A stretch of 64,000 bases of DNA. Origin: Tritonibacter multivorans. GTDB lineage: Bacteria; Pseudomonadota; Alphaproteobacteria; Rhodobacterales; Rhodobacteraceae. The stretch spans positions 496,001 through 560,000 of the forward strand of contig NZ_CYSD01000012.1 of NCBI RefSeq assembly GCF_001458415.1. Reading direction: 5' to 3'. Position numbers and translations under genes: made by a program. Below, piece by piece: positions 32,007 through 49,512 of the stretch. The notes beneath the pieces were generated by a model. That model was given only the letters and a program-made list of their open reading frames with translations, had not been told where the DNA came from and did no database searches. Numbering within the stretch: the first letter of the stretch is position 1; every line of letters begins with the position of its first letter.

Positions 32007-32074
32007 CAGCCGCCCCCTGTGGTTGCTCATTTTTTTGGCAAACCCCTTGCCGGATGCCCGGTTTGCGTGAATAA

Positions 32075-32094
32075 ATTTGACTATACGGTCAAAT
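32075..32094. promoter_or_regulatory. Inverted repeat upstream of tpa-like gene, putative operator
   Basis: Perfect arms ATTTGAC and GTCAAAT around TATACG. A further TTTGGACTTA follows at 32095-32104, so direct-repeat half sites (TTTGACTATA / TTTGGACTTA) of the kind bound by GntR/MocR regulators such as TauR may also be present. The regulator is not in this window. Confidence 0.55.
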
Positions 32095-32222
32095 ATTTGG
32101 ACTTATCTGAGCACAGCGGCTGGCCCTACTCAGCGGGACCGAACTGGCCTCATGTGGAGACAGATGAACAATCGGCCGTCCTTTTCACGAAGGCTCCGGC
32201 CTTACAGGGAAAGGATCTCGCT

Positions 32223-34623: not shown

Positions 34624-36083
34624 GAGCCGATTTTGTTGAAAAACAGCCGTTCGCTGGCGCAGAATAAAGACGGCTGAACCTGGCGCGCATGCCTTTTCTG
34701 GCAGGCTTTTCGCGGTTGCTGCGGTGCAGGAAGGATTTTGGCCAGTTTCCGGAGTTTCTGGGCGGTTGCGGCGAGTAGAAATTCGTCATTCGCACCGCAG
34801 GGTCCACGCAATCGCAGCCTGTTTATGCCCAGGATCCGTTAAAGGTGGGCGAAGAGCATCTCGACCTTCTTCCGCAGCTTCATGGAGATGACGTGTTGGT
34901 CTGTCTTCGCAATGTCGCGGGCGACCTGTCGGGCGTCTTCATGTTCCTCGCGGGTGATCTTGCGGGCATCAGTGTTCGGGCAGCATTTTGCCTTGGAGTG
35001 GCAAGCCTGGCAGACTTCTTTCAGAGCCCGATAGCGAGCCGTCCCCTTGCCAGTCGGACCTCGGTTCGGGTCGGAATAGTTCCTGCGAAATTGCTTCAGC
35101 TCGTGCCCCTCAGGGCAGATGTACTGGTCATTCTCGGCGTCCTACGCGAAATCGGCGCGGGTCCATGTCCCGTCATTCCGCCCTGACTTGTCGAAGACCG
35201 AGATGTGGGGTTCGTTCTTTCGGTCTACCAGCCAGCCCAGCATAGACGCAGTGCCGTAGGCCGTATCCGCGATCAGGTGCTCGGGATGAAGGTCGAACTT
35301 GGCCTTCACGCGCTTTAGCATGGTCTTCGTCGAGCCAACCTCGGCCTGCCGGATCGATCTGGTGGCCTCGACGTCCACGATGACGCCGTGGTCCGTGTCG
35401 ATCAGGTAGTTGTCGGAATAGCTGAAGAAAGCCGGTCCCTTGCGCGCCGCCGTCCATTGGCTGGCCGGGTCAGAATGGGAGGTGAACTTGGGCTGAACCT
35501 CGCTGGCGGCACCGAATGCAGCCTCATCCAGCATGGCGAGATACTCGCGAACGGCCCGGGGCGCGTCGGCGGGATTGATCGACCCGGCGTCCCACTCCTC
35601 CTTCGGCGTAGAGCTCTGCTTGTTGGCATCCGCTTCAATCAGGCTGGCATCAACGGCCATGCGCTGGCCACTGACCAAGCCCTTTTCGATGCACCGCGCG
35701 ACAGTCGTTTCGAACAGGTGCCGCAGCAGTTCGCTGTCACGGAAACGGCCATGCCGGTTCTTGGAAAAGGTTGAGTGGTCAGGGACGCGGGCGCTGAGGT
35801 CCAGGCGGCAAAACCAGCGATAGGCCAGGTTCGGATGCACCTCATCGCAAAGCCGCCGCTCAGACCGGATACCGAAGCAATAGCCGACCAGCAGCATCCG
35901 AATGGGGAGCTCCGGATCGACCGAAGGCCGCCCGGTATGGCTGTAGAAATCGGCAAGGCAGGTGCGGATCCCAGACAGATCCTTAAATCGATCAATATAG
36001 CGCAGCAGGTGGTTTTGCGGAACATGATCCTCAAGCGAGAACTCGTAGAACAGCGCCGGTTGCGCTTCCTGCCGCGGTCCCAT
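34624..36083 (-). pseudogene. IS1182-type transposase with two nonsense mutations
   Basis: Start at ATG 36083, preceded by GGGAGGATCGACG (MGPRQEAQPALFYEFSLEDHVP). HLLRYIDRF, FSKNRHGRF and the DDE region (AVDASLIEADANK, HLIADTAYGTASMLGWL) are IS1182-like. In frame, TAG at 35142-35144 replaces the Tyr of the usual F-x-YDAEND motif. After 101 further codons, including a cysteine-rich block (ICPEGHELKQFRRNY, CQACHSKAKCCPNTD), TAA at 34839-34841 replaces a Lys codon. Downstream sequence LRGPCGANDEFLLAATAQKL remains in frame. Both are single-base changes, so the element is dead but young. Confidence 0.88.
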
Positions 36084-36167
36084 AATCGTCGATCCTCCCA
36101 TCCCTACAGGAATTGAATCAGCCGACAGCCCTTCGATCAAGGACGAGTTTTTCAACAAAATCAGCCC
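34624..36167 (-). mobile_element. IS1182-family-like insertion sequence (decayed)
   Basis: About 1.54 kb bounded by 21-bp imperfect inverted repeats: GAGCCGATTTTGTTGAAAAAC at 34624-34644 and its near reverse complement at 36147-36167 (two mismatches at the outer end). It encodes one disrupted transposase. No clear target duplication was found. It marks the left border of the sulfatase cluster. Confidence 0.82.
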
Positions 36168-36283
36168 AAACTTGCCGTTCATGGGTGCGCGTAAGCGCTG
36201 CAGCGCAGCCCATCGTTTCCGGCATTCGTCATGACAAATAGGTTCGGCGTTGGTCGAAAGAATGCCGTGCAGTGGTACCTTGC

Positions 36284-37231
36284 CTATTCCGACCAGACCA
36301 CACGAAAACCTTGGTGGGTGGTGGTACTGTCTGGCGAGGTCCCGGACCGGGCGGCGATCCTGTAGCGATAGCAATAGGAGGCGTGACACAGGAACGATCC
36401 ACCCTTGGACAGTTTATAGCCTTTCATCGCTGCAAGTCGTTGGCGCACGTGTTTCTTCAAAGATTTGATGCGATAGGCGTCGGCCGTCCATTCCCATACA
36501 TTGCCGACCACATTGTAAAGTCCATAGCCATTCGGCTCGTAATGCCTAGCCGGTGCGGTGGTGACGAAACCGTCTTTGGCGCTGTTGGTTTTGGGAAAAT
36601 CGCCCTGCCAGATGTTGCAGGGTTGGAACGTGGCGTCATCGGGTTCGCGGTCGCCCCAGGGAAAGCGCACATCGCCAAGACCGCCACGGGCAGCATGTTC
36701 CCATTCGATCTCGGTGGGCAGTCGACCCCCGGCCCATTTGGCATAGGCCTGTGCATCGTTCCACGACACATGAACAACGGGATGGTCCGGCCTCCAGGCG
36801 GTCTCCATGGTGCCCGGCCCGTTGATATCGCGCCAATTGGCGCCATCCACGCGGCGCCACCATTCGACATCCTTGACGCCGAGTGTCGGGCCAAGCGCCT
36901 CTGGGACCTGCATCCAGAACACGAAGGACCAGCCGAATCTTTCGGCCTCGGTGAGATAGTTGGTGTCGCGGATGAACGCGGCAAATTGCGCGTTTGTGAC
37001 CGTGGTTGCCCCGATGCGAAAAGGGGTGACGCGGGTGTTGCGGAACGGGTCTTCGCCGTCATGCAGGATTTCGGGATGGTTGGTGCCCGTCAGCGACCTG
37101 CCGCCGGGAATGCGCAGGGCATCCTCTGGTATCCGGCTGCCGCAGGTCACGATGGGTGCGGCAGGCGGGGCGTCTGCCCCAGCACGTCGGGCGGGGCTAC
37201 AGCAGCTGCCTTGTTTCGTGTCTTTTGTCAT
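36284..37231 (-). CDS. Formylglycine-generating enzyme (sulfatase-activating, SUMF1 type)
   Basis: A 315-residue FGE-sulfatase domain protein. IPGGRSLTGTN, VTPFRIGATTVTNAQFAAF, HPVVHVSWNDAQAYAKWAGG, RLPTEIEWEHAARGG and GNVWEWTAD are family blocks. GGSFLCHASYCYRYR carries the two catalytic cysteines (C-x4-C) that bind copper and oxidise the sulfatase cysteine to formylglycine. That pair is present only in true FGEs. The protein appears cytoplasmic (no signal peptide; Cys pair SCC near the N-terminus). It sits next to two CxPxR sulfatases, its predicted clients, and about 120 bp from the dead IS1182 element. Confidence 0.93.
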   Translation of the reverse strand: MTKDTKQGSCCSPARRAGADAPPAAPIVTCGSRIPEDALRIPGGRSLTGTNHPEILHDGEDPFRNTRVTPFRIGATTVTNAQFAAFIRDTNYLTEAERFGWSFVFWMQVPEALGPTLGVKDVEWWRRVDGANWRDINGPGTMETAWRPDHPVVHVSWNDAQAYAKWAGGRLPTEIEWEHAARGGLGDVRFPWGDREPDDATFQPCNIWQGDFPKTNSAKDGFVTTAPARHYEPNGYGLYNVVGNVWEWTADAYRIKSLKKHVRQRLAAMKGYKLSKGGSFLCHASYCYRYRIAARSGTSPDSTTTHQGFRVVWSE

Positions 37232-37240
37232 GGGGTGAGC

Positions 37241-38314
37241 CTAAGTGTCTGTTGGGCCATTGCCAAACCGCTTGAACAGAAATCCGGCCAGGCCCACGGT
37301 GAACAATATGCGAAAAAGGTGATGGGTCGAGACAAGGACCGGACTGACACCGAGGCTCAATGCGATCAGGCTCATCTCGGTGACCCCGCCCGGCGCAAAG
37401 CTGATCAGCAATGTCTGGAAAGATATTGAAAGGAGCTGTCCCAGCATCAATGCAAACCCAGAAGCAATGGCAAGCGTCACCATGACCGATACACAACCAA
37501 GCGCGAGAGCCGACAGCAATCGTCGTGGGGTGGTCTTGGCAAACTGCGCGCCGAGGCTTGCGCCGACGATCAGTTGCGCCAAATTGAGAAGTGCTGGGGG
37601 CCCGCCCAGATCAATGGCCCCCGAAGATTGCAGGATCGCCGTTAAAACCAATGGGCCAAGCAGCGGGGCCGCTGGCAATCGCGAGGCTTTGCCGATCCAA
37701 AGGCCAATGGGGGCGATCAAAGCCACCATCAGCCAATCCCGCCAGTCGGAGGCGCTCTTTTCAAGGGTCTGGCTTGCGGCGCTGCCCACCGTTTCTCCGG
37801 TCATCACCAGAAAAAGCAAGGGAACAAGCAGGATCACCAGAATGATACGCACGAAATGCTGGATGCTCAGTGTCTCGACATTGCCGCCCGCTTGCGTCCC
37901 CAATTCCACCGCTTCGATCAACCCGCCCGGCATGGCTGCATAGAACGCAGTGGGCCGGTCATAGCCGCCCAGATAGTGAAAAATGGCATAGTTCGACGCC
38001 AGCGCGAGAACGACAAACACCATCATCGCGCACAGGGTGACGGCAAGGGTTGGCGCCATGGTCAACACGTCGGGCGTGAAGGTCGTGCCAATCATCGCGC
38101 CAATCACGGCAATGAACACCTCTCGCAGGGGTTTGGGGAAGAACACCGGCCTGCCGGCGCGCGCGGCAAATGTCAGCGCAAGGATCGCCGTTGCCACCAG
38201 ACTTCCCAGAAGGAAGGGAATAGGCCAGCCCATAACACGGGCTGCAAAAGCCCCTACAATGGCTGTTGCAAGGACCAGTGACACTTGCAGCACTTTGGAT
38301 GTGAAGTCTGTCAT
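37241..38314 (-). CDS. AbrB family membrane protein
   Basis: A 357-residue hydrophobic protein of about ten helices, MTDFTSKVLQVSLVLATAIVGAFAA..., with the duplicated layout of AbrB transporters (MGWPIPFLLGSLVATAI; GLWIGKASRLPAAPLLGPLV). The family (once labelled ammonia monooxygenase) is poorly characterised and may export or import small acids. It starts 43 bp after the FAD oxidase stop and ends 9 bp before FGE, so it is likely co-transcribed. Confidence 0.85.
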   Translation of the reverse strand: MTDFTSKVLQVSLVLATAIVGAFAARVMGWPIPFLLGSLVATAILALTFAARAGRPVFFPKPLREVFIAVIGAMIGTTFTPDVLTMAPTLAVTLCAMMVFVVLALASNYAIFHYLGGYDRPTAFYAAMPGGLIEAVELGTQAGGNVETLSIQHFVRIILVILLVPLLFLVMTGETVGSAASQTLEKSASDWRDWLMVALIAPIGLWIGKASRLPAAPLLGPLVLTAILQSSGAIDLGGPPALLNLAQLIVGASLGAQFAKTTPRRLLSALALGCVSVMVTLAIASGFALMLGQLLSISFQTLLISFAPGGVTEMSLIALSLGVSPVLVSTHHLFRILFTVGLAGFLFKRFGNGPTDT

Positions 38315-38357
38315 GCGGGGGCCGGTTCTGTTTGGCAGTACAACACGGCGTTTCCGG

Positions 38358-39743
38358 TCAGTTCACCGAGACCAGCTTGCCGGGGTTCATGATGTTCAGC
38401 GGATCAATGGACTGCTTGAGCTGCGCCATAAGCAGGTAGGCCTCTCCGTGTTCCTCTGGCATGTATTTCTTCTTGCCGGTCCCGACGCCGTGTTCGCCCG
38501 TCACCGTCCCCCCAAAAGAAAGCGCTGTCCGGCTCACATCGGATGCCAGTTGCTTGGCACGCGCCATTTCGTCGCCATTGTCCGGGTCGACCAGGATCAA
38601 AAGGTGGTAATTGCCGTCACCAACATGCCCTACGATTGGGGCGATCAGGCCGGATTCGGCGATCAGCTCTTTTGTGCGGGCGATGCAATCTGCCAGCGCC
38701 GAGATGGGCACACAGCAATCCGTGACAAGCCCCTCGCAGCCCTTGCGCAGCGACTTACCCGCGTAATAGGCGTTGTGACGCGCCTGCCACAACCGTTCGC
38801 GATCTTCCAGCTTTGTGGCCCAGTCAAAGCCGGAGACGCCGAATTCTTCCGCGACGCTTTCGAACAGGTCCACCTGTTCTTTGACGCCTGCCTCAGACCC
38901 GTGAAACTCGATGAAAAGATGCGGTTTTTCGGGCAGGTTCAGGTCAGGGTTGAAGATGTTCATGCCCTTCATCTGCACGTCGTCCAAAAGCTCGATCCGG
39001 GCCATGGGCAGTCCCATTTGAATGGCCGTGATCACCGTGTTCACCGCATCATCAATCGTGTCAAAGGCGCAGGTGGCTGACAGTTCGGAATCGGGTCGTC
39101 CAAACAGGCGCACCGTCAGTTCGGTGATGATACCCAAGGTGCCCTCGGAGCCGACGAACAGATGGGTCAGATCATACCCTGCCGAAGATTTGCGCGCACG
39201 CGATCCTGTGTTGATCACCCTGCCATCCGGCAACACAACCTCGAGCGCCATAACGTTTTCCCGCATGGTGCCATAGCGCACGGTATTGGTGCCCGACGCG
39301 CGGGTCGAGGTCATCCCGCCCAGCGTGGCATTTGCGCCCGGATCGACCGTGAACATCAGTCCCGTGGCCCGCAGATCGTCATTCAGCTGTTTGCGGGTCA
39401 CACCTGGTTGCACCACCGCGTCCAGATCGCTTTGGTGGATGTCCAGCACCTTGTTCATCCGGCTTGTGTCCACACTGATGCCGCCATGGATCGGGATCAC
39501 ATGGCCTTCCAGCGATGTGCCGATGCCAAAGGGCACAACGGGCACTTTATGCGCCGAACAGATCTTCATGATCGCCGACACCTCTTCGGTGTTGTCGGGG
39601 AAGGCCACGGCGTCCGGCAATGCGGGTTCCGAATAGGCCTCGTCGCGGCCATGGATTTCGCGCACGGATTGGCCGGTGGACAAACGGTCCCCCAAAAGAG
39701 CCCGCAGCTCAGACAAAGCCAAAGAAATAGTGTCCTGCGTCAT
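38358..39743 (-). CDS. FAD-linked D-2-hydroxyacid dehydrogenase (D-lactate dehydrogenase/GlcD type)
   Basis: A 461-residue protein. FAD-binding domain of the PCMH/vanillyl-alcohol-oxidase fold: VPVVPFGIGTSLEGHVIP, DAVVQPGVTRKQLND, TVDPGANATLGGMTSTRASG and VGSEGTLGIITELTVRL. The FAD-oxidase C-terminal domain has HVGDGNYHLLILVDP and GGTVTGEHGVGTGKKKYM with substrate/metal histidines. It oxidises a D-2-hydroxy acid such as D-lactate or glycolate to the 2-oxo acid, passing electrons to the respiratory chain. Within the cluster it may act on the alcohol released by a sulfatase (inference). Confidence 0.9.
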   Translation of the reverse strand: MTQDTISLALSELRALLGDRLSTGQSVREIHGRDEAYSEPALPDAVAFPDNTEEVSAIMKICSAHKVPVVPFGIGTSLEGHVIPIHGGISVDTSRMNKVLDIHQSDLDAVVQPGVTRKQLNDDLRATGLMFTVDPGANATLGGMTSTRASGTNTVRYGTMRENVMALEVVLPDGRVINTGSRARKSSAGYDLTHLFVGSEGTLGIITELTVRLFGRPDSELSATCAFDTIDDAVNTVITAIQMGLPMARIELLDDVQMKGMNIFNPDLNLPEKPHLFIEFHGSEAGVKEQVDLFESVAEEFGVSGFDWATKLEDRERLWQARHNAYYAGKSLRKGCEGLVTDCCVPISALADCIARTKELIAESGLIAPIVGHVGDGNYHLLILVDPDNGDEMARAKQLASDVSRTALSFGGTVTGEHGVGTGKKKYMPEEHGEAYLLMAQLKQSIDPLNIMNPGKLVSVN

Positions 39744-39778
39744 GGCAGATCCTCGTTTTGAATGGTCCCAAACGCCGC

Positions 39779-41224
39779 TCAGGTGGCGGGCGGCGGCGTC
39801 GCCGAAGGCGCCCCCAATTTCGACGCAGCCTCTTTGCCACCATAGGCCTCGATCATCGCGTCCTGATCCTCAAAGGCTTCGGTGTTGACGGCGTCCGGAT
39901 CGCAGATCTTGCGAAGCTCTGCCTGCATCCGGGCAAGATCATCCGCATAGGCCGGGTTCTGCGCCTGATTGGTCAGTTCCTCTGGGTCTTCGGCCAGATT
40001 GAACAGCTCAGGCTCGAAGCCGACATATTCGATCAGTTTAAGATCGCCCTTTCGCAGCATGAACTCGCCGGACACCGCGCCAATCGCGTGGTATTCGCTG
40101 AAGACGGCGCGGTCGGTGTCGTCTTCGCAGGCGGCAATGTCATACAGCGAAGTTCCGGGGCGTTCGCCCGGAAGCGCGGCGTCGAAGTGGTCGATGATCG
40201 TTTCCGAGATGTCCAGCAGGCTAGTCGTGGTCGCGCTGGTCGGTCGGGGATCGACCCCCAGATCGGGGGCTGGCGCGACAATCAACGGGATCGCGGCAGA
40301 TTCCTCGTACATGTTCATCTTGCCCCACAGGTCGCGCACGCCCAGGTTTTCGCCATGATCGCTTGAGTAGATGATCGTGGTGTTGTCGAACTGCCCGCTG
40401 TCTTTCAGCGCGCTTACGATCCGCCCGACATTGTGGTCCATGTAGCTGGTCAGACCGTAGTACGACGCAATCGCAACGCGCCGCTCTTCTTCGTCCTTCC
40501 AGCCGTCCTCCGCGACCATGGCGTCAGCCATTTTGTCCAGCCAGGGATGACGCACGTAGCCATCCTTGCGCCGCAGCTTGTCCGCCGGAAGCTTGTCCAA
40601 CGGATAAAGATCGTAGAATTCCTGAGGCGCGATCAGCGGGTGGTGCGGTGCCAAAAGCCCGACATAGAGACACCATGGCGCGGCGCTGTCCTGTGTTTTA
40701 GACAGCCAATCGCAGGTCATGTCCGTGACGCTGCGATCGTATTTTGTATAGCTGCTTTCGCCCGGCCCGATTGTGTCGCCCATCATCCGCACGTGTTTGT
40801 TGTAAACACGTTCGTCTTCGCGGCGGATGGAGCCCCACACCATGCCGACTCCATCGGCCACATGCATAGGAATATGCTGGGCGTCAAAGCCGCTGTCGTC
40901 CTCTTGGTGGCGGTAGTGCAGCTTGCCAATGGATTCTACGCGCACGCCTTTGTCCTGCAACGCATGCCCCCAGCCGCGCGGCGTTCCCTTGTAGGGCATC
41001 GCATTGTCCCAGTTGCGAATGTCATGCACCTGCCGACCTGTTGCAAAGGCGGCGCGGGCCGGCACACAAATGGGGGACGGCGTGTAGGCGTTGGTAAAGC
41101 GTGTGCCACGTGCTGCCAGTTCGTCCAGATGCGGTGTCTGCACCACCGGATGATCCGCACAGGACATGGCTCGCGCCTGGTGTTGATCCGAAAGGATGAC
41201 GAGGAGGTTGGGGGAGGATTTCAT
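39779..41224 (-). CDS. Cytoplasmic Cys-type sulfatase (type I), copy 1
   Basis: A 481-residue alkaline phosphatase-superfamily sulfatase. NLLVILSDQHQARAM carries the metal Asp residues. The formylglycine motif CVPAR followed by AAFATGR is intact. KDKGVRVESIGKLHYR and IYSSDHGENLGVRDLWGK hold further metal/sulfate ligands. No signal peptide, so the ester must be imported. It starts 3 bp after the marR stop and is 35 bp upstream of the dehydrogenase. It resembles choline-sulfatase-type enzymes, but the substrate is not known. Confidence 0.93.
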   Translation of the reverse strand: MKSSPNLLVILSDQHQARAMSCADHPVVQTPHLDELAARGTRFTNAYTPSPICVPARAAFATGRQVHDIRNWDNAMPYKGTPRGWGHALQDKGVRVESIGKLHYRHQEDDSGFDAQHIPMHVADGVGMVWGSIRREDERVYNKHVRMMGDTIGPGESSYTKYDRSVTDMTCDWLSKTQDSAAPWCLYVGLLAPHHPLIAPQEFYDLYPLDKLPADKLRRKDGYVRHPWLDKMADAMVAEDGWKDEEERRVAIASYYGLTSYMDHNVGRIVSALKDSGQFDNTTIIYSSDHGENLGVRDLWGKMNMYEESAAIPLIVAPAPDLGVDPRPTSATTTSLLDISETIIDHFDAALPGERPGTSLYDIAACEDDTDRAVFSEYHAIGAVSGEFMLRKGDLKLIEYVGFEPELFNLAEDPEELTNQAQNPAYADDLARMQAELRKICDPDAVNTEAFEDQDAMIEAYGGKEAASKLGAPSATPPPAT

Positions 41225-41227
41225 AGG

Positions 41228-41716
41228 TTATTCTTCTTCCATTGCAGGAATCGGGATGTCGAAATCGGTCTTTTGCGCAGCTGCTGCCATGACCCTGATC
41301 GCCTTGTAGATGACGGACAGCTCCTCTTCGCTGAGCGTCGCCACCAGATGCCGCTGGCGTTCGTCCAGCACTGGCCCAAGCCGCGCGTGGGCGAGATGCG
41401 CTTTGTCGGTCAACTCGATCACATGTTGGCGTTTGTCAGCTTTGTAAGGGTGAAGCACCACGTAACCCTTTTGCTCAAGAGCGCCCAGCATCTTGCTGAA
41501 CTGGCTCTTGTCTATACCGGCCGCTTTGCGCACCGGCGTTGTGGTGCTTTCGACGCCAAGGGCGACAACCCGAACGATCCGCCATTGGGCAAGATTCAGA
41601 TCACCATAGGCAGAGATGATGACCTTTGCCTGCGCGTTCAGCGCAGTGTGCAATTGCGCGATCTGGAAGGGCAGCAATAGGCCCAACCCGATCGCACTAT
41701 CATCCGAATTTGTCAT
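41228..41716 (-). CDS. MarR family transcriptional regulator
   Basis: 162 residues from the ATG at 41716 (MTNSDDSAIGLGLLLPF). The winged helix is LNLAQWRIVRVVALGVESTT, the recognition helix region is GIDKSQFSKMLGALEQKGYV and the wing is PYKADKRQHVIELTDKA. A long frame upstream overlaps tctC and is not used. It lies between divergent sulfatase 1 and tctC with a perfect palindrome (41757-41792) in the shared promoter region. Control of both arms is inferred. Confidence 0.92.
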   Translation of the reverse strand: MTNSDDSAIGLGLLLPFQIAQLHTALNAQAKVIISAYGDLNLAQWRIVRVVALGVESTTTPVRKAAGIDKSQFSKMLGALEQKGYVVLHPYKADKRQHVIELTDKAHLAHARLGPVLDERQRHLVATLSEEELSVIYKAIRVMAAAAQKTDFDIPIPAMEEE

Positions 41717-41756
41717 TTTCCGCGATCCTTCTTTCAAATCGAAATTCGGGCAGTTT

Positions 41757-41792
41757 GGTGGAAAAGTCAACTTAAATGTTGACTTTTCCACC
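41757..41792. promoter_or_regulatory. Perfect palindrome, predicted MarR operator
   Basis: GGTGGAAAAGTCAAC, spacer TTAAAT, then GTTGACTTTTCCACC: a perfect inverted repeat with 15-bp arms centred in the 126-bp marR/tctC intergenic region. It is much longer than chance would give and not a terminator position. It probably represses both divergent transcripts until the inducer appears. Confidence 0.88.
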
Positions 41793-41842
41793 TTTCGAAA
41801 TGACAAACGTTCCCAACGACATTGCACTTCAGGGAGGGAAAC

Positions 41843-42790
41843 ATGAGGAAGTTGCTTAAATCTGCGGTGGTTGCCGCCGCGGTTATCGGGACATCTACGG
41901 CCACATTGGCAGAGGATTGGGCCCCGCCGGGGCCCATCAAGATGGTGATTGCCTTTGCGGCGGGCGGCGGCGCTGACACACAGGCCCGCCTGATTGCCGA
42001 AGAGCTTGAAGCAACGCAAGGCTGGAAAGTCATTCCCGAGCAAGTCACTGGCAAGGGTGGGCTGAACGCAGTGAATGCAGTCAAAGATGCACCGGCAGAT
42101 GGCACAACGATTGCCATGATCGTCACAAGCAGCCTTGGCTATAGTATGGTCACCGCGAAAGCCGGGTCCCCACAGGACGTGACCCCGATCACCACCACCG
42201 CAGGCACGCAAATGGCGGTCGTTGCGCGGGCCGACAAAGGTTGGTCCACGTTGGGTGATGTGATCGAAGCCGCCAAAGGCGGTGAGGATATCCGTTTTGG
42301 CGTCATGTCCCCGGCCTTAGGTGACATTGCCTATTTGGTTGGTAAAGAAAACGGCGTCGACTTCAACATCATCTCGGTCAAGGGCGGCAAGGCTGTGATG
42401 AACGGTTTGAATGCAGGCGACATGGATGTGGGTTTTGGCGCGGGCATTCAGGCCAAAGCCGTTGCGGCTGGTGATATGGTCGAGCTGGCTTCGGCCCGCA
42501 GCGAACCTCTGATCAATTCGCCTGAGGCGCCGCTGCTTTCGGAATACGGCGTGAACTTTGTGAGTGAACTTGCGTTCCTGTTCGCCGGTCCAAAGGACAT
42601 GGATCCTGTGGCCCGCGCCGCGATCGCCTCTGCAATTGCTGAAGTTGCAACGCAAGAAGGTGGAAAAGCCAATGCGTTCCTGACCAAAGGGTTTGGCGGA
42701 GCCATGATCATCGCCGGAGAAGAACTTGAGGCCGTTGTTCAGAAGGGCTTTGAGTCTTCGGGCGCACTTGCTGCGGCAGCGGCCGAATAA
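41843..42790 (+). CDS. Tripartite tricarboxylate transporter substrate-binding protein (TctC)
   Basis: 315 residues from the ATG at 41843, preceded by AGGGAGGG. Signal peptide with core AVVAAAVIGTSTATLA and cleavage near LA-EDW. The mature part has the TctC/Bug fold pattern: PIKMVIAFAAGGGADTQAR, GKGGLNAVNAVKDAPADGTT. Periplasmic capture of a carboxylate for TctA/TctB. It heads the plus-strand operon tctC-tctB-tctA-sulfatase 2. Confidence 0.92.
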   Translation: MRKLLKSAVVAAAVIGTSTATLAEDWAPPGPIKMVIAFAAGGGADTQARLIAEELEATQGWKVIPEQVTGKGGLNAVNAVKDAPADGTTIAMIVTSSLGYSMVTAKAGSPQDVTPITTTAGTQMAVVARADKGWSTLGDVIEAAKGGEDIRFGVMSPALGDIAYLVGKENGVDFNIISVKGGKAVMNGLNAGDMDVGFGAGIQAKAVAAGDMVELASARSEPLINSPEAPLLSEYGVNFVSELAFLFAGPKDMDPVARAAIASAIAEVATQEGGKANAFLTKGFGGAMIIAGEELEAVVQKGFESSGALAAAAAE

Positions 42791-42866
42791 GGCTCTGTGC
42801 GAACACGCCTATAGCACGGGCGGCCGATACGCCGCCCGATCGTCTTTGCCAACATAAGAGACCGAT

Positions 42867-43409
42867 ATGCGCAATCTCTCTGCCAGCACGGCACTGGGTC
42901 TGGGCTGTATTGCCTTTGCTTTGATCCTTGCCTTCATCTGGATACCGCTCGATGTTGAAACCTGGTTGGTTGAACGCAAACGCGGTCGCTATATCGTTGG
43001 CGATAGCCTTGCGCCGACTTTGGCCGCGGCTTTCATTCTGTTGGCCGGAGTAATGCTGTGGTTCGAGCGCAGGTCTCGTGACCCGCGCCCTACACGCCAG
43101 AACCTGACATTCATCGGAGCGATTTCGTTTTTTGGTCTCGTTGGCATTCTGCTGATGCGCTGGTCTGGGCCGGTTGTGACCAGCGTGTTTGGGGCAGAAG
43201 AATACAGGCTTCTTCGTGACACGGCGCCCTGGAAATACATTGGTTTTGTCCTCGGCGGCAGCACGATGGTCTTTTGCATTGTGTCCTTTGTGGAGCAGCG
43301 TGTGTCCTGGCGTGCATTTTGGGTGGCACTGGCGGCGGTGGTCGGCATTATCGCCCTGTATGATCTCCCGTTTGACGACGTGCTGCTGCCACCGAATGGA
43401 GATGTCTGA
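42867..43409 (+). CDS. Tripartite tricarboxylate transporter small membrane subunit (TctB)
   Basis: A 180-residue hydrophobic protein with four predicted helices (starts MRNLSASTALGLGCIAFALILAF) and the polar IPLDVETWLVERKRGRYIVGD loop typical of TctB-like subunits. It is placed between tctC (76 bp) and tctA (TGATG junction, 1-bp overlap), which supports the call despite low sequence conservation. Confidence 0.85.
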   Translation: MRNLSASTALGLGCIAFALILAFIWIPLDVETWLVERKRGRYIVGDSLAPTLAAAFILLAGVMLWFERRSRDPRPTRQNLTFIGAISFFGLVGILLMRWSGPVVTSVFGAEEYRLLRDTAPWKYIGFVLGGSTMVFCIVSFVEQRVSWRAFWVALAAVVGIIALYDLPFDDVLLPPNGDV

Positions 43410-45007
43410 TGGCCGATTTGGGCACCTTTGACTATGTCTGGCTCGGCATCCTTGCGGTCTTTCAGGGGCCCGAGGCTTTTTCGCTTCTTGGCGTTTCGGT
43501 GTCGATCACTGTGATGATGGTTGCCTTCGGGCTGATCCTTGGAATCGTTGTTGGCGCAACACCGGGTCTTGGCGGGGTCATAGCGATGGCCATCTCCCTA
43601 CCCATCCTGATCTCAATCTTCGGCTTTAACGCGGATGCGCTTTTGCCGGTGATGGGGTTCCTGATCGGCGTCATGAAAGGGTCCACCGTCGGCGGCGCGG
43701 TTCCGGCGATCCTGTTCAACACCCCCGGCACGCCTGACGCCTATATGACCACGCTGGACGGCTATCCGATGGCGCAGTCGGGCAAAGCGCGCAAAGCCCT
43801 CAAGATCTCGCATTTTTCATCTGTCACAGGGGACACGTTTTCGGATGTTGTCCTGATCGTCTGTGCCCCATTTCTTGCGATCCTGGTTGAGGCCCATCTG
43901 GACCTGCCCGAGAAGACGGCGCTTCTTATCCTATCGCTCAGCTTTATCGCAGCCGTTGTCGGCGGGTCGGCGGCCAAAGGGCTGCTCAGCTGCGGGCTTG
44001 GGCTCTTGGCCGTCTATATCGGCACCGGAGAGGACTTTTACCCGCGGCTGAGCTTTGGCACGGCGGCCCTGTCAGACGGGATCCCCATCACCGCTGCGGT
44101 CATTGGCGTACTGGTTATTGGGGCAATCTTTTCCGAGCTTGAAAACCTTTGGGCCCAAAAACGCCAAACAGGCGCAATTCAAGTCGCAAAGGAGGAAGGC
44201 GACCAGCGACTGCACTGGGCCGACATTCGCCGGATCTTTCCTTATATCGGCCGCTCGGCCCTCATCGGCACGACCATCGGGGCCCTTCCGGGCGTTGGCT
44301 CAACGCTGGCGGCCACCATCGGGTACGCGACCAGCAAACGCCTTTATACCAAAACCAAGAAACCGGGCGATCCGGCGTTCGGGCAGGGCGCGCCTGAAGG
44401 TATTGCCGCGACCGAGGCCGCAAATTCTTCGGTTTCGGGCGCAAACCTGATCCCCGTCCTGTCCCTTGGCATTCCCGGCAATACGGCCGCCGTTTTCCTG
44501 ATCCTGGCTGCAGAATCCATTGGCGGTTTCAATCCGGGGCCGGCGGTTTTTCAGTTTTCGTCCGATCTGAACCCCGAACTGGTGATCGCCTTCGGGCTGT
44601 TCACGACCATGATCCTGGCCAATCTTTTGAACTGGACGGTGGGTGGGGTCTTCATGCGGTCACTTGGGGTCCTTGTGCGCATCCCAAAGCAATATCTCTT
44701 GCCGGTTGTCCTGCTGTTGACGCTTGCGTCCCTATATGTTCAGGAAACCTCAATGAGCGCCATCTGGTTTGCCTTCGGCTTTGGCATCCTTGGCTATTTC
44801 ATGATGCGCTTTGCGATCTCACCGCTCCCCTTTGTGATTGGGTTCATTCTCGGCGGGCGTATTGAGGACACCGCACGACAGGCATTTTCCGCGACCGGAG
44901 GCGATCCCTGGTTCCTCTTCAAAAGCCCGATCGCCGCCATGTTCATGCTCTGCGCATTGGCGGTGATTTTCGTGTCTCTTCGCAAGCCAAAAGGAGACAT
45001 GCCATGA
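43409..45007 (+). CDS. Tripartite tricarboxylate transporter large permease (TctA)
   Basis: A 532-residue protein with about twelve helices. Family motifs GATPGLGGVIAMAISLPI and LGIPGNTAAVFLILA form the duplicated PGxGG-type signatures, and FNTPGTPDAYMTTLDGYPMAQ is diagnostic of TctA. It forms the ion-coupled transport channel. It overlaps tctB by 1 bp and sulfatase 2 by 4 bp, so the sulfatase is translationally coupled to the transporter. Confidence 0.95.
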   Translation: MADLGTFDYVWLGILAVFQGPEAFSLLGVSVSITVMMVAFGLILGIVVGATPGLGGVIAMAISLPILISIFGFNADALLPVMGFLIGVMKGSTVGGAVPAILFNTPGTPDAYMTTLDGYPMAQSGKARKALKISHFSSVTGDTFSDVVLIVCAPFLAILVEAHLDLPEKTALLILSLSFIAAVVGGSAAKGLLSCGLGLLAVYIGTGEDFYPRLSFGTAALSDGIPITAAVIGVLVIGAIFSELENLWAQKRQTGAIQVAKEEGDQRLHWADIRRIFPYIGRSALIGTTIGALPGVGSTLAATIGYATSKRLYTKTKKPGDPAFGQGAPEGIAATEAANSSVSGANLIPVLSLGIPGNTAAVFLILAAESIGGFNPGPAVFQFSSDLNPELVIAFGLFTTMILANLLNWTVGGVFMRSLGVLVRIPKQYLLPVVLLLTLASLYVQETSMSAIWFAFGFGILGYFMMRFAISPLPFVIGFILGGRIEDTARQAFSATGGDPWFLFKSPIAAMFMLCALAVIFVSLRKPKGDMP

Positions 45008-46518
45008 CCCGCCCCAACATCCTGTTCATCACCTCTGACCAGCAACGCGGCGATTGCTATGGGTTTCGCGGCCGCAATGTCTACACGCCGCATCTGGATA
45101 TGCTTGCCGCTGAAGGCACCAGCCTTGAAACGGTTGTGACGCCTTGTGTGGTCTGTCAGCCCGCGCGGGCGTCGATCCTGACAGGTCTTCTGCCGCGCAC
45201 CCATGGTGTGCATGACAATGGAATCGATTTGGACCCTGAGCTGGGCGAAAAAGGCTTTGCCGCCTCGCTGTCTGCGGCGGGGTATCGCACCGCCAAGATC
45301 GGCAAGGCGCATTTTGCGACCTATCACACCTTTGGCGACAGCGACACGGTCGAGTCCATTCCCGGATCGGCCAAGGTGCCAGAGGGATGGCGCGGGCCCT
45401 ATATGGGTTTTGATCATGCCGAACTCGTCCACATCGGCCACAACTGGTGGCATCCCGAAGAACCACCTGCCGGTCTGGCCTATGAGGAATGGTACTACGG
45501 CGACGGTCGGGGCGCGCAGAAAAACAAGCTGCTGTGGGAAAGCCACCGCGATCATAAGGATGCGCCACAGGTCTGGTCATCAAAGTTGCCTGTGGCCTGG
45601 CACAATTCCTCATGGATCGCAGACCGCGCAATTGATTTCATCAAGCAGGACCACGAGAAACCGTTCTGTATGTGGGTGTCCTTTCCCGACCCCCACCACC
45701 CGTTTGACTGCCCCGAACCCTGGGCGTCCCTGCATCGGCCGGAAGACGTGGATCTGCCGGAACACCGAACCCGCGACTTCGAGGGCCGACCGTGGTGGCA
45801 CAAGGCGGCGGTCGAGACCAAGATCGAAGGCAAGGGCGCCGAGATCCGCACAAGCTATTCGCGTTATCCTGAAATTCCGGATGAACAGCTGCGCGAGGTG
45901 ATAGCCAATACCTATGGCCAGCTGTCCCTGATCGACCATTCAGTCGGACGCATCATCACCGAACTCGAAGCGCAGGGTTTGGCCGATAACACCTATATCG
46001 TCTACACCGCCGACCACGGCGACTGGCTGGGCGACCATGGGTTGGTTCTGAAAGGGCCGATGCCGTTTGAGGGACTGTTGAATGTCCGCGCCATCGTCAA
46101 AGGCCCCGATGTTCCGGTCGGAAAAGTCAGCTTTGAACCGCTCTCGACCCTTGATCTGGGCGCGACCTTCATGGATTGGGCAGGCGCAGACAGCCTGATG
46201 GATATTCACGGCCAGTCCATGCGCGATGTCATTTCGGGGGACGGCACGCGCAAGGCCGCAATGAGCGAATGGGAGCTTCTGCCCGGTCGCGTGGGTGTCG
46301 GATTGTCTCTGCGCACCGTGCGCAGCAAGACGGCCAAACTGACCCTGGACCTGCAATCCGGCGCAGGCGAGATGTATGATCTGGAGAAGGACCCGCATGA
46401 GCTTCGCAATGTCTTCGATGATCCCGACTACGCTGCGATGAAGGCTGACTTGAACGAGATCCTGATGGCGCGACCTGATGATATGCGACCCAATCAGGAG
46501 CCGGTGGGAATGGCGTAA
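45004..46518 (+). CDS. Cytoplasmic Cys-type sulfatase (type I), copy 2
   Basis: A 504-residue sulfatase. NILFITSDQQRGDCYG gives metal ligands, CQPAR followed by ASILTG is the intact formylglycine motif, AAGYRTAKIGKAHF carries the usual Lys/His pair, SFPDPHHPFDCPEPW lies in the active site, and VYTADHGDWLGDHGLVLKG is the second metal site. No signal peptide. ATGA overlap with tctA suggests that its substrate is what the transporter brings in. It is not closely similar to sulfatase 1, so the two may act on different esters. Confidence 0.94.
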   Translation: MTRPNILFITSDQQRGDCYGFRGRNVYTPHLDMLAAEGTSLETVVTPCVVCQPARASILTGLLPRTHGVHDNGIDLDPELGEKGFAASLSAAGYRTAKIGKAHFATYHTFGDSDTVESIPGSAKVPEGWRGPYMGFDHAELVHIGHNWWHPEEPPAGLAYEEWYYGDGRGAQKNKLLWESHRDHKDAPQVWSSKLPVAWHNSSWIADRAIDFIKQDHEKPFCMWVSFPDPHHPFDCPEPWASLHRPEDVDLPEHRTRDFEGRPWWHKAAVETKIEGKGAEIRTSYSRYPEIPDEQLREVIANTYGQLSLIDHSVGRIITELEAQGLADNTYIVYTADHGDWLGDHGLVLKGPMPFEGLLNVRAIVKGPDVPVGKVSFEPLSTLDLGATFMDWAGADSLMDIHGQSMRDVISGDGTRKAAMSEWELLPGRVGVGLSLRTVRSKTAKLTLDLQSGAGEMYDLEKDPHELRNVFDDPDYAAMKADLNEILMARPDDMRPNQEPVGMA

Positions 46519-46996
46519 GGAGGTCCCAACTTGCCGACGATCACATGTGCCGAGGGTTTTCGCCAGCTCTACAAACGGTGTGTGACAGGGTTTTCTATGA
46601 CTGTGTAGAAAATGAACCTTACCAGGAACCGACGTTTCACCGTAACGAAATCGTTTCCGAATAAATCCAAATCCGTCAACACGTCGGCGTCGATATAACC
46701 GGCATTTATGCCCGCAGGGCAATGGCCGGTGCAGCGGCCCGGACACCTGCCGCCATTGCGCCGGTCGGTATGAGGGCATACGGAACGCCACCAGGAAAAT
46801 CAAGGCCACCTTTGCCAGTAGGTTGCACGCGAACAGTAGACAGCAGAAGGTCAACCTGTGCTTGTGATAGAAGAGCTGGACCAACTTGCGCTCGCGGCGA
46901 ATGACCGGTTGCCAGTTCTTGGTGTTATTCTCTGAATACGCAAGGTGCCGAAAGCTGCCGTTGGGGCCAATGCGGCGAAAGGACGCTTTGTCCTGT
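46519..46996 (+). other. Gene-free stretch between sulfatase 2 and the IS110-type element
   Basis: No convincing gene. Several open frames on the minus strand (one encoding [20 protein letters not shown]) look like decayed coding sequence, possibly a dead transposase or membrane protein, but I could not match a family. It marks the right end of the sulfatase cluster. Confidence 0.5.
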
Positions 46997-47240: not shown

Positions 47241-48260
47241 CTATGCCGCCGATTGGCGGTAGTAGGTATCTTTGGTGAGGATCGCCCAAATGATCCTGGC
47301 CGCCTTGTTCGCCATAGCAATCGTTGCGAGGCGAACGGGTTTGCGTTCAAGAAGCTGCATGATCCAAGGGTGCACACGTTCTGGATAGCCACGGGCACGC
47401 TGAACTTGAGAGGTCATGCCGATCACGAGTAATCGTCGAAGGTATCGGTCTCCCTTCTTGCTTATGCGGCCCAGGCGCTCTTTACCACCGCTCGACTTGT
47501 TCAGCGGCGTAAGTCCCAGCCAAGCAGCAAACTCGCGTCCATTCTTGAACTGTTGGCCGTCGCCGATGGTTGCGACAATGGCCGAAGCAGTGATGGGGCC
47601 GACGCCAGGAACGGTCCTAATGCGTTTGGCGCGTTCATCGATCCGAGAATGATACTCGATCAGTTTATCGTAAAACGTGACCCGGTCATCGAGCGCATTA
47701 ACCTGTTCGCAGAGCGTCTTGAGCATGCTCTTTGCCACGTCAGGCATGTCCAGGCAGTTATCCGTCTGGAACGTCTTGATGAAGCGCATTGCGGCGACTG
47801 GTCCGTTCCCGATTACATGACCAAACTCACGCAGAAGACCACGGATCACATTCAACATCTGGGTCTTCTGGCGAACGACAAGCTGGCGCACCCGGTGGAT
47901 GGTCAGTAGGGCCTGCTGCTCTTTCGACTTCACAGCGACAAACCGCATCGTTGGTCGTGTGACGGCCTCGCAAATCGCCTCAGCATCAACGGCGTCTGTC
48001 TTGCCGCGTTTAACATACGGCTTAACGTAGGTGGCAGGCATCAACCGTACATCATGACCGATCGCAGTCAGCTCACGTGCCCAATGATGCGCAGATCCGC
48101 AGGCTTCAATACCAACCAGACAACGCGGCAACGCTTCGAAGAACTTGAGCAATTGTCGCCGCCGGATCGAACGATTGAAGGCAACCGTGCCGTCAGCTGT
48201 GACACCGTGAACTTGGAAAACGTCCTTCCCAAGATCCAATCCTATTGTCGTAACTTCCAT
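47241..48260 (-). CDS. IS110-family transposase (DEDD recombinase)
   Basis: 339 residues from the ATG at 48260 (MEVTTIGLDLGKDVFQVHGV), preceded by GAAAGGAGC. The N-terminal DEDD RuvC-like domain has D in IGLDLGKDVFQ, E in VGIEACGSAHHWAREL and the D..D pair in GKTDAVDAEAI. The C-terminal Transposase_20 domain has VPGVGPITASAIVATIGD, FAAWLGLTP and NKSSGGKERLGRISKKGDRYLR with the catalytic serine. The frame is intact, so the element may still be active. Confidence 0.95.
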   Translation of the reverse strand: MEVTTIGLDLGKDVFQVHGVTADGTVAFNRSIRRRQLLKFFEALPRCLVGIEACGSAHHWARELTAIGHDVRLMPATYVKPYVKRGKTDAVDAEAICEAVTRPTMRFVAVKSKEQQALLTIHRVRQLVVRQKTQMLNVIRGLLREFGHVIGNGPVAAMRFIKTFQTDNCLDMPDVAKSMLKTLCEQVNALDDRVTFYDKLIEYHSRIDERAKRIRTVPGVGPITASAIVATIGDGQQFKNGREFAAWLGLTPLNKSSGGKERLGRISKKGDRYLRRLLVIGMTSQVQRARGYPERVHPWIMQLLERKPVRLATIAMANKAARIIWAILTKDTYYRQSAA

Positions 48261-48511
48261 GATGGGGCTCCTTTCCTGACAGAAGATGACTTCTGCAGTG
48301 TGCCGCAAAATGCGACGCTTGGTGCAGACGCCATCCACCCCATCCGCACTGCAGCTCTCCGAGTCCCAGCTGATCGACAGTCTGTCTTGGCCGCAAGCCC
48401 CCTCGGACCAATCAAAGGCTTAAAGGATGCAACATTGAAACCGTTCAAGCGGGACAGAGGCCGCCATAAGTCGTTGGTGCGGGGCTTCGCCCTATTTGCA
48501 ACGACCCCCAA

Positions 48512-48558: not shown

Positions 48559-49512
48559 TCAGACCCGATTGGGCAGATCCCTGCCCGTCAGATGCGCCGC
48601 GAGGTTGTCCAGCGCCATATGCCCCATCGCACTGCGCACTTCCTCGGTCGCCGTGCCCAGATGCGGCAGCAGGGTCACCTGCTCCATTGCGCGCAGGGCC
48701 TCTGGCACCTTTGGTTCAAACTCATAGACATCAAGCCCCGCGCCCGCGATCTGCCCTGTTTCCAGCGCCGCGATCAGCGCCGCCTCATCGACCACCTCAC
48801 CCCGGGCAATATTGATCAGCAGCGCGCTGGGTTTCATGGCCGCGAGCACATCCGCGTTGATCAGATGGCGGGTGTCGTCCCCACCCGGCACCGCCAGCAC
48901 CAGCACATCGACGGTGGCCGCGAGCGCGCGCAGATCCGCCGCCCGCTCTGCCGGATAGGTCGTGGCTTTTGGGCTGCGTGCCACATAGGCGATCTCCATC
49001 CCGAACCCGAAATGCGCGCGTCGGGCAATGGCGTCGCCAATGCGGCCCAGCCCCACAACACCCAGACGTTTGCCGGTCAGGTGCATCCCCAGCATCTGAG
49101 TCGGGTGCCAGCCCTGCCACGCCCCACTGCGCACCAGCCGCTCGCCCTCGCCTGCACGCCGTGCGGTCATCAGCATCAGCGTCAGGGCAATATCGGCGGT
49201 GGCATCGGTCACGGCACCGGGCGTGTTGCTGACCGCCACCCCGGCCGCCTGTGCGGCTGCGACATCAATGTGGTTATATCCCACCCCAAAATTTGCCAGC
49301 AACCTGCAGCGGGGATTGGGAGCCGCCGCAAAAACCTCGGCCGTGAAAAGATCGCCCAGGGTGGGCACCACAAGGTCATAATCCTGCAAGCTTGCGACAA
49401 TTTCAGCGCGGGTCATTGGCGTGGTCGCAGCCCGGATCTCTGCGCTGAACTCCGACACTGCCCGCGCCGTCACGGCTTCCGTCATTGGCCGAGTGATCAG
49501 AACCCGCGCCAT
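48559..49512 (-). CDS. D-isomer 2-hydroxyacid dehydrogenase (glyoxylate reductase-like)
   Basis: A 317-residue protein. NAD-binding motif LGVVGLGRIGDAIARR; catalytic Arg in LINIARGEVVDEAAL, Glu in GLDVYEFEP and His in LLPHLGTATEEVR. Family resemblance is to glyoxylate/hydroxypyruvate reductases (GyaR-like). It reduces a 2-oxo acid or glyoxylate with NAD(P)H. It is the last of a tight minus-strand run (proC - CsaA-like - this gene), overlapping the previous stop by one base. Confidence 0.92.
   Translation of the reverse strand: MARVLITRPMTEAVTARAVSEFSAEIRAATTPMTRAEIVASLQDYDLVVPTLGDLFTAEVFAAAPNPRCRLLANFGVGYNHIDVAAAQAAGVAVSNTPGAVTDATADIALTLMLMTARRAGEGERLVRSGAWQGWHPTQMLGMHLTGKRLGVVGLGRIGDAIARRAHFGFGMEIAYVARSPKATTYPAERAADLRALAATVDVLVLAVPGGDDTRHLINADVLAAMKPSALLINIARGEVVDEAALIAALETGQIAGAGLDVYEFEPKVPEALRAMEQVTLLPHLGTATEEVRSAMGHMALDNLAAHLTGRDLPNRV

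Follow-up and report, generated by a model that had tools for sequence, protein, structure and literature searches.

The 64-kb stretch of the 4.17-Mb Tritonibacter multivorans genome considered here (G000:C12:496001-560000, hereafter the window) contains two divergent gene arms that together encode a tripartite tricarboxylate transporter (TTT), two cysteine-type sulfatases (S1 and S2), a formylglycine-generating enzyme (FGE) and an FAD-linked D-2-hydroxyacid dehydrogenase. Taken as a whole, this cluster probably encodes the import of a sulfate ester of a 2-hydroxy acid, its FGE-dependent desulfation in the cytoplasm, and the oxidation of the freed hydroxy acid by a flavin enzyme. Genome comparison supports a pathway of this class well, although not the choice of any one ester; lactate 2-sulfate is our tentative favourite, with sulfated hydroxyphenyl acids following as the next candidates.

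In the proposed pathway, TctCBA would bring in the anionic 2-hydroxy-acid sulfate ester intact, upon which S1 and S2, their active-site cysteines having been turned into formylglycine by the FGE, would free the sulfate in the cytoplasm. The flavin dehydrogenase would then oxidise the hydroxy acid, and the resulting 2-oxo acid would feed into central metabolism. A MarR-family regulator, acting at the palindrome that separates the arms, would keep both repressed until relieved by an effector. The D form of the substrate would be handled by S1 and the LDHD-like FAD enzyme, and the L form by S2 together with a chromosomal LldD (i.e. an L-type FMN enzyme encoded elsewhere), because the local copy of the latter has decayed.

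Organisation of the cluster

The minus-strand arm carries, in this order, the genes for the MarR-family regulator (41228-41716, with the start position as read off the DNA; both the PF13463 and the PF12802 cut-off are exceeded), S1 (39779-41224), the FAD-linked dehydrogenase (38358-39743; PF01565 and PF02913), an AbrB-type membrane protein (37241-38314; TIGR03082 duplication, 184.7 bits, cut-off 94.7) and the FGE (36284-37231; PF03781, 239.5 bits), separated by gaps of 3, 35, 43 and 9 bases. The AbrB-type protein could possibly export a product. On the plus strand follow TctC, TctB, TctA, S2 and the broken remnant of an LldD-like gene. TctC, the periplasmic solute-binding protein (from the ATG at 41843 to 42790), has a signal-like N-terminus by inspection and, like the large permease TctA (43409-45007; PF01970, 331 bits), scores above the curated Pfam cut-off (PF03401, 48.2 bits, cut-off 27). 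The small membrane subunit TctB (42867-43409) is divergent and stays below its cut-off (PF07331, 19.7 of 29.1 bits); its position and size fit those of a TTT subunit, and when the window protein was aligned with other members to a total of 14, PF07331 was matched by 13 of them at E<=0.01. The plus-strand sulfatase S2 (45004-46518; PF00884, 131 bits, cut-off 25) starts with an ATG that overlaps the tctA stop (ATGA).

All eight genes that the original prediction had named in this region were recovered by profile matches, in the families and at the positions it gave. Its more detailed observations also held, namely the catalytic C-x4-C of the FGE (Cys282/Cys287), the overlap of S2 with tctA, and the lack of signal peptides on the sulfatases, as neither S1 nor S2 has a signal-like N-terminal stretch by inspection. 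The MarR gene, a 36-bp operator candidate, the LldD remnant and the flanking transposases were absent from it.

Conservation of the cluster and recruitment of dehydrogenases

When 345 genomes of the family were searched with S1 (at most four candidates being scored per genome), 296 gave a match at E<=1e-20, and at least 33 matches, window included, were at least 56% identical, followed by a gap to 50% or less. The surroundings of the other 32 matches and of eight weaker homologues, up to 19.7 kb each, were scanned with nine window proteins, and a profile scan of named genomes added the best 80 of 251 confirmed relatives, which were scanned in the same way with three queries more. S1, MarR and TctCBA lie together in most S1 relatives with scanned surroundings, an arrangement that this comparison places beyond chance. 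The nearest cluster relatives of the window are those of Lentibacter and Shimia.

A 90-row S1 tree (quick method, with L109 dropped as equal to L108) resolves two sister clades, type A with 27 rows including the window (SH-aLRT 98) and type B with 48 rows (SH-aLRT 95), leaving 15 rows outside both. From the 40 loci of the first search, the tree took L037, L056, L058, L061, L063, L065, L066, L067, L069 and L073; eight loci with a distinct S1 were left out (L043, L046, L048, L053, L060, L062, L064 and L068), and most other S1 orthologue loci outside it share their S1 with a named locus. Adding these eight gave an enlarged FastTree tree of 96 distinct rows, in which S1 proteins below 50% were excluded (so that L069 and L073 drop out) and type A still comprises the same 27 rows. 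Of the 27 type A rows, 21 have an intact TctA, L113 has it in pieces, and L089, L092, L099, L152 and L157 lack it; S2 occurs in seven. Among the 42 named type B rows, TctA is present in 40 (some being cut by contig ends), S2 in 33 and a metallo-beta-lactamase (MBL)-fold hydrolase in 36; for the six rows of this clade that are unnamed, neighbours were taken from separate scans.

Within 6.5 kb of S1, 18/27 type A rows have an intact flavin 2-hydroxyacid dehydrogenase versus 1/48 type B rows (18/27 versus 2/50 in the enlarged set), where the limit of 6.5 kb was chosen after LldD genes had been found 5.3 kb away. Since the rows are related and hence not independent, the corresponding Fisher value (8e-10) overstates the evidence, and the repeated recruitment of dehydrogenases is the better argument. 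The enzyme is LDHD-like in 11 type A rows (the window, L078, L079, L080, L087, L088, L089, L092, L097, L100 and L141), D2HGDH-like in four (L084, L085, L086 and L103) and LldD-like in three (L037, L081 and L082). The type B rows with a dehydrogenase are L063 and, in the enlarged set, L046 (D2HGDH-like, 41%, 0.9 kb from S1); in L059/L127 the gene is 7.5 kb from S1 and thus outside the limit.

That three dehydrogenase families occur at the locus is certain: LldD belongs to a different family altogether, and in a 36-row tree of the FAD enzymes the D2HGDH-like cluster enzymes are far off. Within the same tree, the window group stands beside the chromosomal, gyrB-adjacent copy, and a second LDHD-like group (L087, L088, L097, L100 and L141) joins it with weak support (94/66), with L089/L092 outside at an unresolved fork. 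From this topology, more than one recruitment of an LDHD-like enzyme seems likely. As the window genome has three other places related to the FAD enzyme, one of them with an adjacent fragment, a 15-kb stretch would by chance include an FAD-type neighbour at roughly one in 70-90 loci. Of 21 related genomes, 20 encode an FAD-type enzyme away from the cluster (E<=1e-100), the remaining one, G360, having the cluster copy only, whereas enzymes at least 69% identical to the cluster type are confined to the cluster in all eight related genomes that have this type. The exception to this confinement is the window genome itself, with an 80% identical copy beside gyrB.

Homologues of S1 were also found on 16 plasmid records, which are kept outside the clade counts and of which 12 were analysed (all but H1, H5, H6 and H8). 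A flavin 2-hydroxyacid dehydrogenase is near S1 in 7 of these 12. An Alisedimentitalea plasmid carries LldD, S2, TTT, MarR and S1, while on plasmids of Paracoccus seriniphilus and Sulfitobacter SK012 S1 is followed by an LDHD-like enzyme, again with TTT and MarR. On a Mameliella alba plasmid, typed conjugative, S1 and an LDHD-like enzyme are accompanied by a HisC-like aminotransferase and an Opp-type binding protein, as in L089/L092; a Neorhizobium plasmid has S1 (56%), a D2HGDH-like enzyme, an aminotransferase and Opp-type genes. Two Paraburkholderia plasmids combine S1 (49%) with a D2HGDH-like enzyme, with a major facilitator superfamily (MFS) symporter between them in the annotated one. S1 and a dehydrogenase thus also occur with other importers (Opp-type ABC genes in L089, L092, L220 and L223, the MFS symporter in L225). 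The weaker homologue L070 (48%) has TTT genes and an enzyme with FAD_binding_4 and FAD-oxidase_C domains. The gene-order comparison called for by the original prediction therefore came out in its favour, in that sulfatase, TTT and 2-hydroxyacid dehydrogenase co-occur in other genomes, with dehydrogenases of different families.

Some of these loci have peculiarities of their own. In L089, L092 and L220, S1, HutD, a HisC-like aminotransferase, an LDHD-like enzyme and Opp-type ABC genes that replace the TTT make up a separate variant; L220 also has HglS and another FAD enzyme, which were left aside because they apparently belong to a lysine route. In the Sulfitobacter SK012 plasmid locus (L222), fragments of an FGE gene flank the cluster on either side, a second MarR-TctCBA set is adjacent to it, and pyruvate-dehydrogenase-type E2/E3 genes lie past TctA.

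Sulfatases and their activation

Both sulfatases have a type I signature within a PF00884 domain, C53-V-P-A-R in S1 and C51-Q-P-A-R in S2. For S1 the closest solved relatives are choline sulfatases, its alignment to the Sinorhizobium meliloti enzyme SmCS (6fny) having an E-value of 4e-52. The active site of SmCS is made up of Asp14, Cys54, Asn75, Lys102, His104, His201, Asp296, His297 and Lys309 (PMC5870055), for which S1 has the counterparts D13, C53, N74, K101, H103, H194, D289, H290 and K302. These residues and the C-x-P-x-R motif are invariant in 75 S1 rows, apart from one exception each for N74 and Arg57. The alcohol end of the pocket differs. Glu386, which binds the quaternary ammonium of choline (PMC5870055), is replaced by Ile381 in the window, by I/V in 27/27 type A rows and by A/V/I/T in 48/48 type B rows, and two positions earlier all 75 rows have a histidine (His379 in S1) where choline sulfatase has Ala. 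The loss of a negative charge and the possible gain of a positive one near the alcohol pocket would suit an anionic substrate.

S1 and S2 were accordingly rejected as choline sulfatases: the substrate-binding glutamate is missing in all S1 rows, and both proteins score below the cut-off of TIGR03417 (248.2 bits for S1 and 179.8 for S2, of 433.45). A true choline sulfatase is encoded elsewhere in the genome (L217, G000:C14:177000-196500; 896.9 bits against the same cut-off), next to a divergent LysR-like gene.

Apart from the FGE of the locus, the genome gave no match to the FGE family. The two other strong PF00884 matches are the L217 choline sulfatase and the S1 homologue of L056, which, as there is a single FGE, this enzyme presumably serves as well. 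L056 (G000:C2:465-19883) is a second S1-MarR/TctCBA cluster, of type B and without S2 or the MBL gene, so that two related importer-sulfatase systems coexist in this genome. For the MBL-fold hydrolase of type B (loci L094-L155) the best solved relative is 8gyg, labelled an arylsulfatase, and the type B substrate may belong to another class of sulfate esters.

The dehydrogenase pocket and its L-type counterpart

The best solved relative of the FAD enzyme is mouse LDHD (475.6 bits). Pocket positions, counted by hand on the alignment to LDHD, show that its subsite A is kept whole in the window enzyme (Arg347, His398, His405, Glu442 and His443), while the subsite B residues Val101, Trp351, Ser365 and Ile407 have become Leu, Tyr, Val and Leu, which are still hydrophobic. 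At the position of LDHD Ala363, the window enzyme has Gly and GlcD a Tyr, which is linked to glycolate use (PMC10589216). The same source describes mouse LDHD as oxidising D-lactate and other hydrophobic D-2-hydroxy acids and as inactive on glycolate, L-lactate, D-malate and D-2-hydroxyglutarate (PMC10589216). Because the FAD pocket resembles that of D-lactate dehydrogenase and is without the glycolate-linked tyrosine of GlcD, lactate 2-sulfate is the substrate that we tentatively favour. An assignment of the enzyme as GlcD/glycolate oxidase was rejected on the same residue and on its TIGR00387 score (350.9 bits, below 567.9). In the one D2HGDH-like member that was aligned (L084), the charged pocket is lost, with Thr390, Lys401 and Asn443 changed to Ala, Met and Thr.

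In other loci an L-type enzyme is found instead. An intact LldD-like gene directly follows S2 in L037, L081, L082, L063 and the plasmid locus L219, and in these stretches the FAD enzyme was not found. The LldD-like proteins of L037 (421.7 bits) and L082 (413.8 bits) exceed the PRK11197 L-lactate dehydrogenase cut-off of 376 and fall short of a narrower LldD model. In three type A rows, the window, L078 and L080, the FAD enzyme is accompanied by a broken or truncated LldD remnant in the LldD position; in the window this is the frame-broken N-terminal part of an LldD-type FMN 2-hydroxyacid dehydrogenase (46522-46892, plus strand, by tblastn; G000:C12:542566-542784 with a stop in the genome search). 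In L079, which has the FAD enzyme, no LldD remnant was detected. Type A loci without S2 have D-type dehydrogenases or none. Elsewhere in the window genome there is an LldD-like gene (54%).

This distribution fits either two stereo-specific branches (S1 with the D-type and S2 with the L-type enzyme) or a single achiral product, and the latter option is weakened by the fact that the pocket of the FAD enzyme is LDHD-like and not GlcD-like. In the former case S1 and S2 would be stereo-complementary sulfatases for the mirror forms of one sulfated hydroxy acid, e.g. lactate 2-sulfate, S1 working with the D-specific FAD enzyme and S2 with the L-specific FMN enzyme, a refinement that we put forward as an outside chance. 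The D-2-hydroxy acid of the original prediction may in any case be only part of the picture, since the D-specific dehydrogenase varies: some close relatives have an L-lactate-dehydrogenase-type FMN enzyme after S2 in place of the FAD enzyme, of which the window keeps a decayed copy.

Alternative explanations

Several observations weigh against a pathway for 2-hydroxy-acid sulfates. No such dehydrogenase is present within 6.5 kb of S1 in 8 of the 27 type A rows (L083, L090, L091, L093, L095, L099, L113 and L157), of which L099 and L157 adjoin Opp-type ABC genes, and L152 shows two partial dehydrogenase matches only. It is likewise lacking in 5 of the 12 plasmid records, those of Nocardia (L226, by annotation only), Paraburkholderia PREW-6R, Chelativorans, Sulfitobacter mediterraneus and Marinovum (the other loci being L227, L228, L229 and L231). 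Type B has S1, the TTT, usually S2 and the MBL hydrolase, with a dehydrogenase nearby in L063 and L046 only, from which it follows that most of the wider sulfatase-TTT family works without a 2-hydroxyacid dehydrogenase. The predicted sequence of import, desulfation and oxidation is therefore partly supported, and the sulfatase-TTT pair by itself does not imply a 2-hydroxy acid. The HisC-like aminotransferase of the ABC-type clusters hints at a side chain larger than that of lactate, and on the Sulfitobacter mediterraneus plasmid (L229, S1 48%) an S1/TctCBA/S2/FGE set adjoins homogentisate-pathway genes, which suggests an aromatic acid sulfate there. Finally, the ligand of TctC is not readable from its sequence.

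An unlikely alternative is that the substrate is an aryl sulfate of a phenolic acid bearing a 2-hydroxy-acid group, such as sulfated hydroxyphenyllactate, of which the phenol would be desulfated and the side chain oxidised to a phenylpyruvate. Besides the homogentisate genes and the aminotransferase, the arylsulfatase label of the type B MBL relative would agree with this, as would an aromatic-ring-hydroxylating dioxygenase subunit annotated ~6 kb from S1 in L220 and the best NCBIfam match of the window MarR, the aromatic-catabolism regulator HpaR, albeit far below the cut-off (41.9 of 121.2 bits). Mouse LDHD still accepts 2-hydroxy-3-phenylpropionate, 4.3-fold less well (PMC10589216). Conversely, no aromatic-ring gene was recognised in the window cluster or its scanned type A neighbours (some neighbours being unscanned), and the LldD-type partner clears an L-lactate dehydrogenase cut-off. 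The pocket itself is ambiguous, as Ser365Val and Val101Leu would suggest a smaller one and Trp351Tyr and Ala363Gly point the opposite way.

Glycolate sulfate, which the original prediction had offered as an example, would account for the exchange of dehydrogenases: glycolate being achiral, D-type FAD and L-type FMN enzymes could replace each other, which would explain the decayed LldD-type gene beside the FAD enzyme. Indeed, intact LDHD-like and intact LldD-like genes were never found together in the 27 type A stretches, and an LldD remnant is present in three of the four rows that have both S2 and the FAD enzyme. Glycolic acid sulfate is also an abundant aerosol organosulfate (PMC12224290). 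It is nevertheless disfavoured by the dehydrogenase pocket, which is LDHD-like and not that of GlcD, and by the reported inactivity of mouse LDHD on glycolate, and we consider it quite improbable. Least probable of all would be a plain sulfatase cluster scavenging sulfur or choline sulfate, with a dehydrogenase adjacent by chance. Sulfatases are common in the family, as the number of genomes with S1 matches illustrates, and choline sulfatases are the closest solved relatives of S1; however, the choline-binding glutamate is missing throughout, both sulfatases score below the choline-sulfatase cut-off, a true choline sulfatase is encoded separately in this genome, and three dehydrogenase families recur at the locus. 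Neither were NAD-dependent 2-hydroxyacid dehydrogenases (48559-49512 in the window, and in L095) retained as parts of the pathway, since they are outside the conserved block, either past an insertion sequence (IS) element or beside dihydroxyacetone kinase.

Regulation and mobility

Between the arms of the window lies a 36-bp palindromic operator candidate (41757-41792) with the core GTCAAC-N6-GTTGAC at 41766-41783. Of the 25 named type A loci, 14 have the exact core with a spacer of N4-7 upstream of S1 and five more have a relaxed form, the six misses being five loci without TTT and the decaying L113; among the 42 named type B loci, 29 have the exact core there and 13 are without. Random 900-nt stretches used as a control gave no exact core in 931 and, in a second set of 1337, none exact and one relaxed. 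A longer palindrome could be read in 21 type A intergenic regions out of 26 loci tried, and is weak in L093, L097 and L100.

A wider MarR regulon was considered and rejected, as the exact core (N4-7) occurs once in the window genome against three times for the backward control pattern. Of 19 related genomes, 17 hold one to four exact cores, often including the one of the cluster, mostly about as many as the backward control; G200 (4 versus 1) and G354 (4 versus 0) are above it. In G354, three exact cores lie within 5 kb on one contig (L232, G354:C19:5299-10158), a stretch that encodes no relative of the cluster proteins.

IS elements are present on both sides of the cluster. At the left edge, an IS1182-like transposase open reading frame (35142-36389, minus strand; Pfam DUF772, PF05598, 84.8 bits; NCBIfam IS1182 259.7 bits, just below the cut-off of 270) overlaps, as listed, the terminal part of the FGE gene, likewise on the minus strand, and at the right edge there is an IS110-family transposase (47241-48338, minus strand; NF033542, 339.9 bits, cut-off 140). 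The NAD-dependent D-2-hydroxyacid dehydrogenase gene mentioned above is just past the latter and probably has no connection with the cluster. Identity to Lentibacter is 95% for S1, compared with 75% for a flanking gene (32019-33626), which, resting on this one gene, is an indication of horizontal transfer. The cluster appears to be a conserved mobile cassette.

Comparison with known systems

Our literature search, with most subscription journals outside its coverage, found no published description of this gene set and no paper naming bacterial genes that consume lactic or glycolic acid sulfates. Both compounds are often reported to rank in the top five organosulfates of fine aerosol by abundance (PMC12224290). 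If the proposed pathway is true, marine Rhodobacterales would possess a movable, operator-controlled route for hydroxy-acid sulfates that ties organosulfate turnover to lactate metabolism, with a new sulfatase specificity group apart from choline sulfatase. Should S1 and S2 moreover be stereo-complementary, it would be, to our knowledge, the first genetically defined breakdown route for hydroxy-acid sulfates, a class abundant in atmospheric aerosol.

A D-lactate-2-sulphatase is named in the title of a 1984 paper (Biochem J 223:487, in the reference list of PMC5870055), and its reaction would be the same as that proposed for S1. The cluster could then provide a gene-level candidate for this activity. 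We know of no sequence for the 1984 enzyme. BetC of S. meliloti, a choline sulfatase, is found with a regulator, an importer and partner enzymes that differ from those of the S1 cluster. S1 shares with BetC (6fny) the fold family, the counterparts of the metal, nucleophile, Lys, Asn, His and Lys residues, and the proposed hydrolysis of a small alkyl sulfate, but has Ile, Val, Ala or Thr in place of Glu386 and the invariant His379 in place of Ala (PMC5870055). With mammalian LDHD the window enzyme has in common the five substrate-head residues and a hydrophobic side-chain pocket; it differs in being bacterial and part of a sulfatase operon, and in having Leu, Tyr, Val and Leu as the four side-chain-pocket residues (PMC10589216 for LDHD). 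The importer, finally, follows the three-gene order of TctCBA transporters, with TctA and TctC recognisable at the Pfam level, while its TctC and TctB are divergent and its operon ends in a sulfatase.

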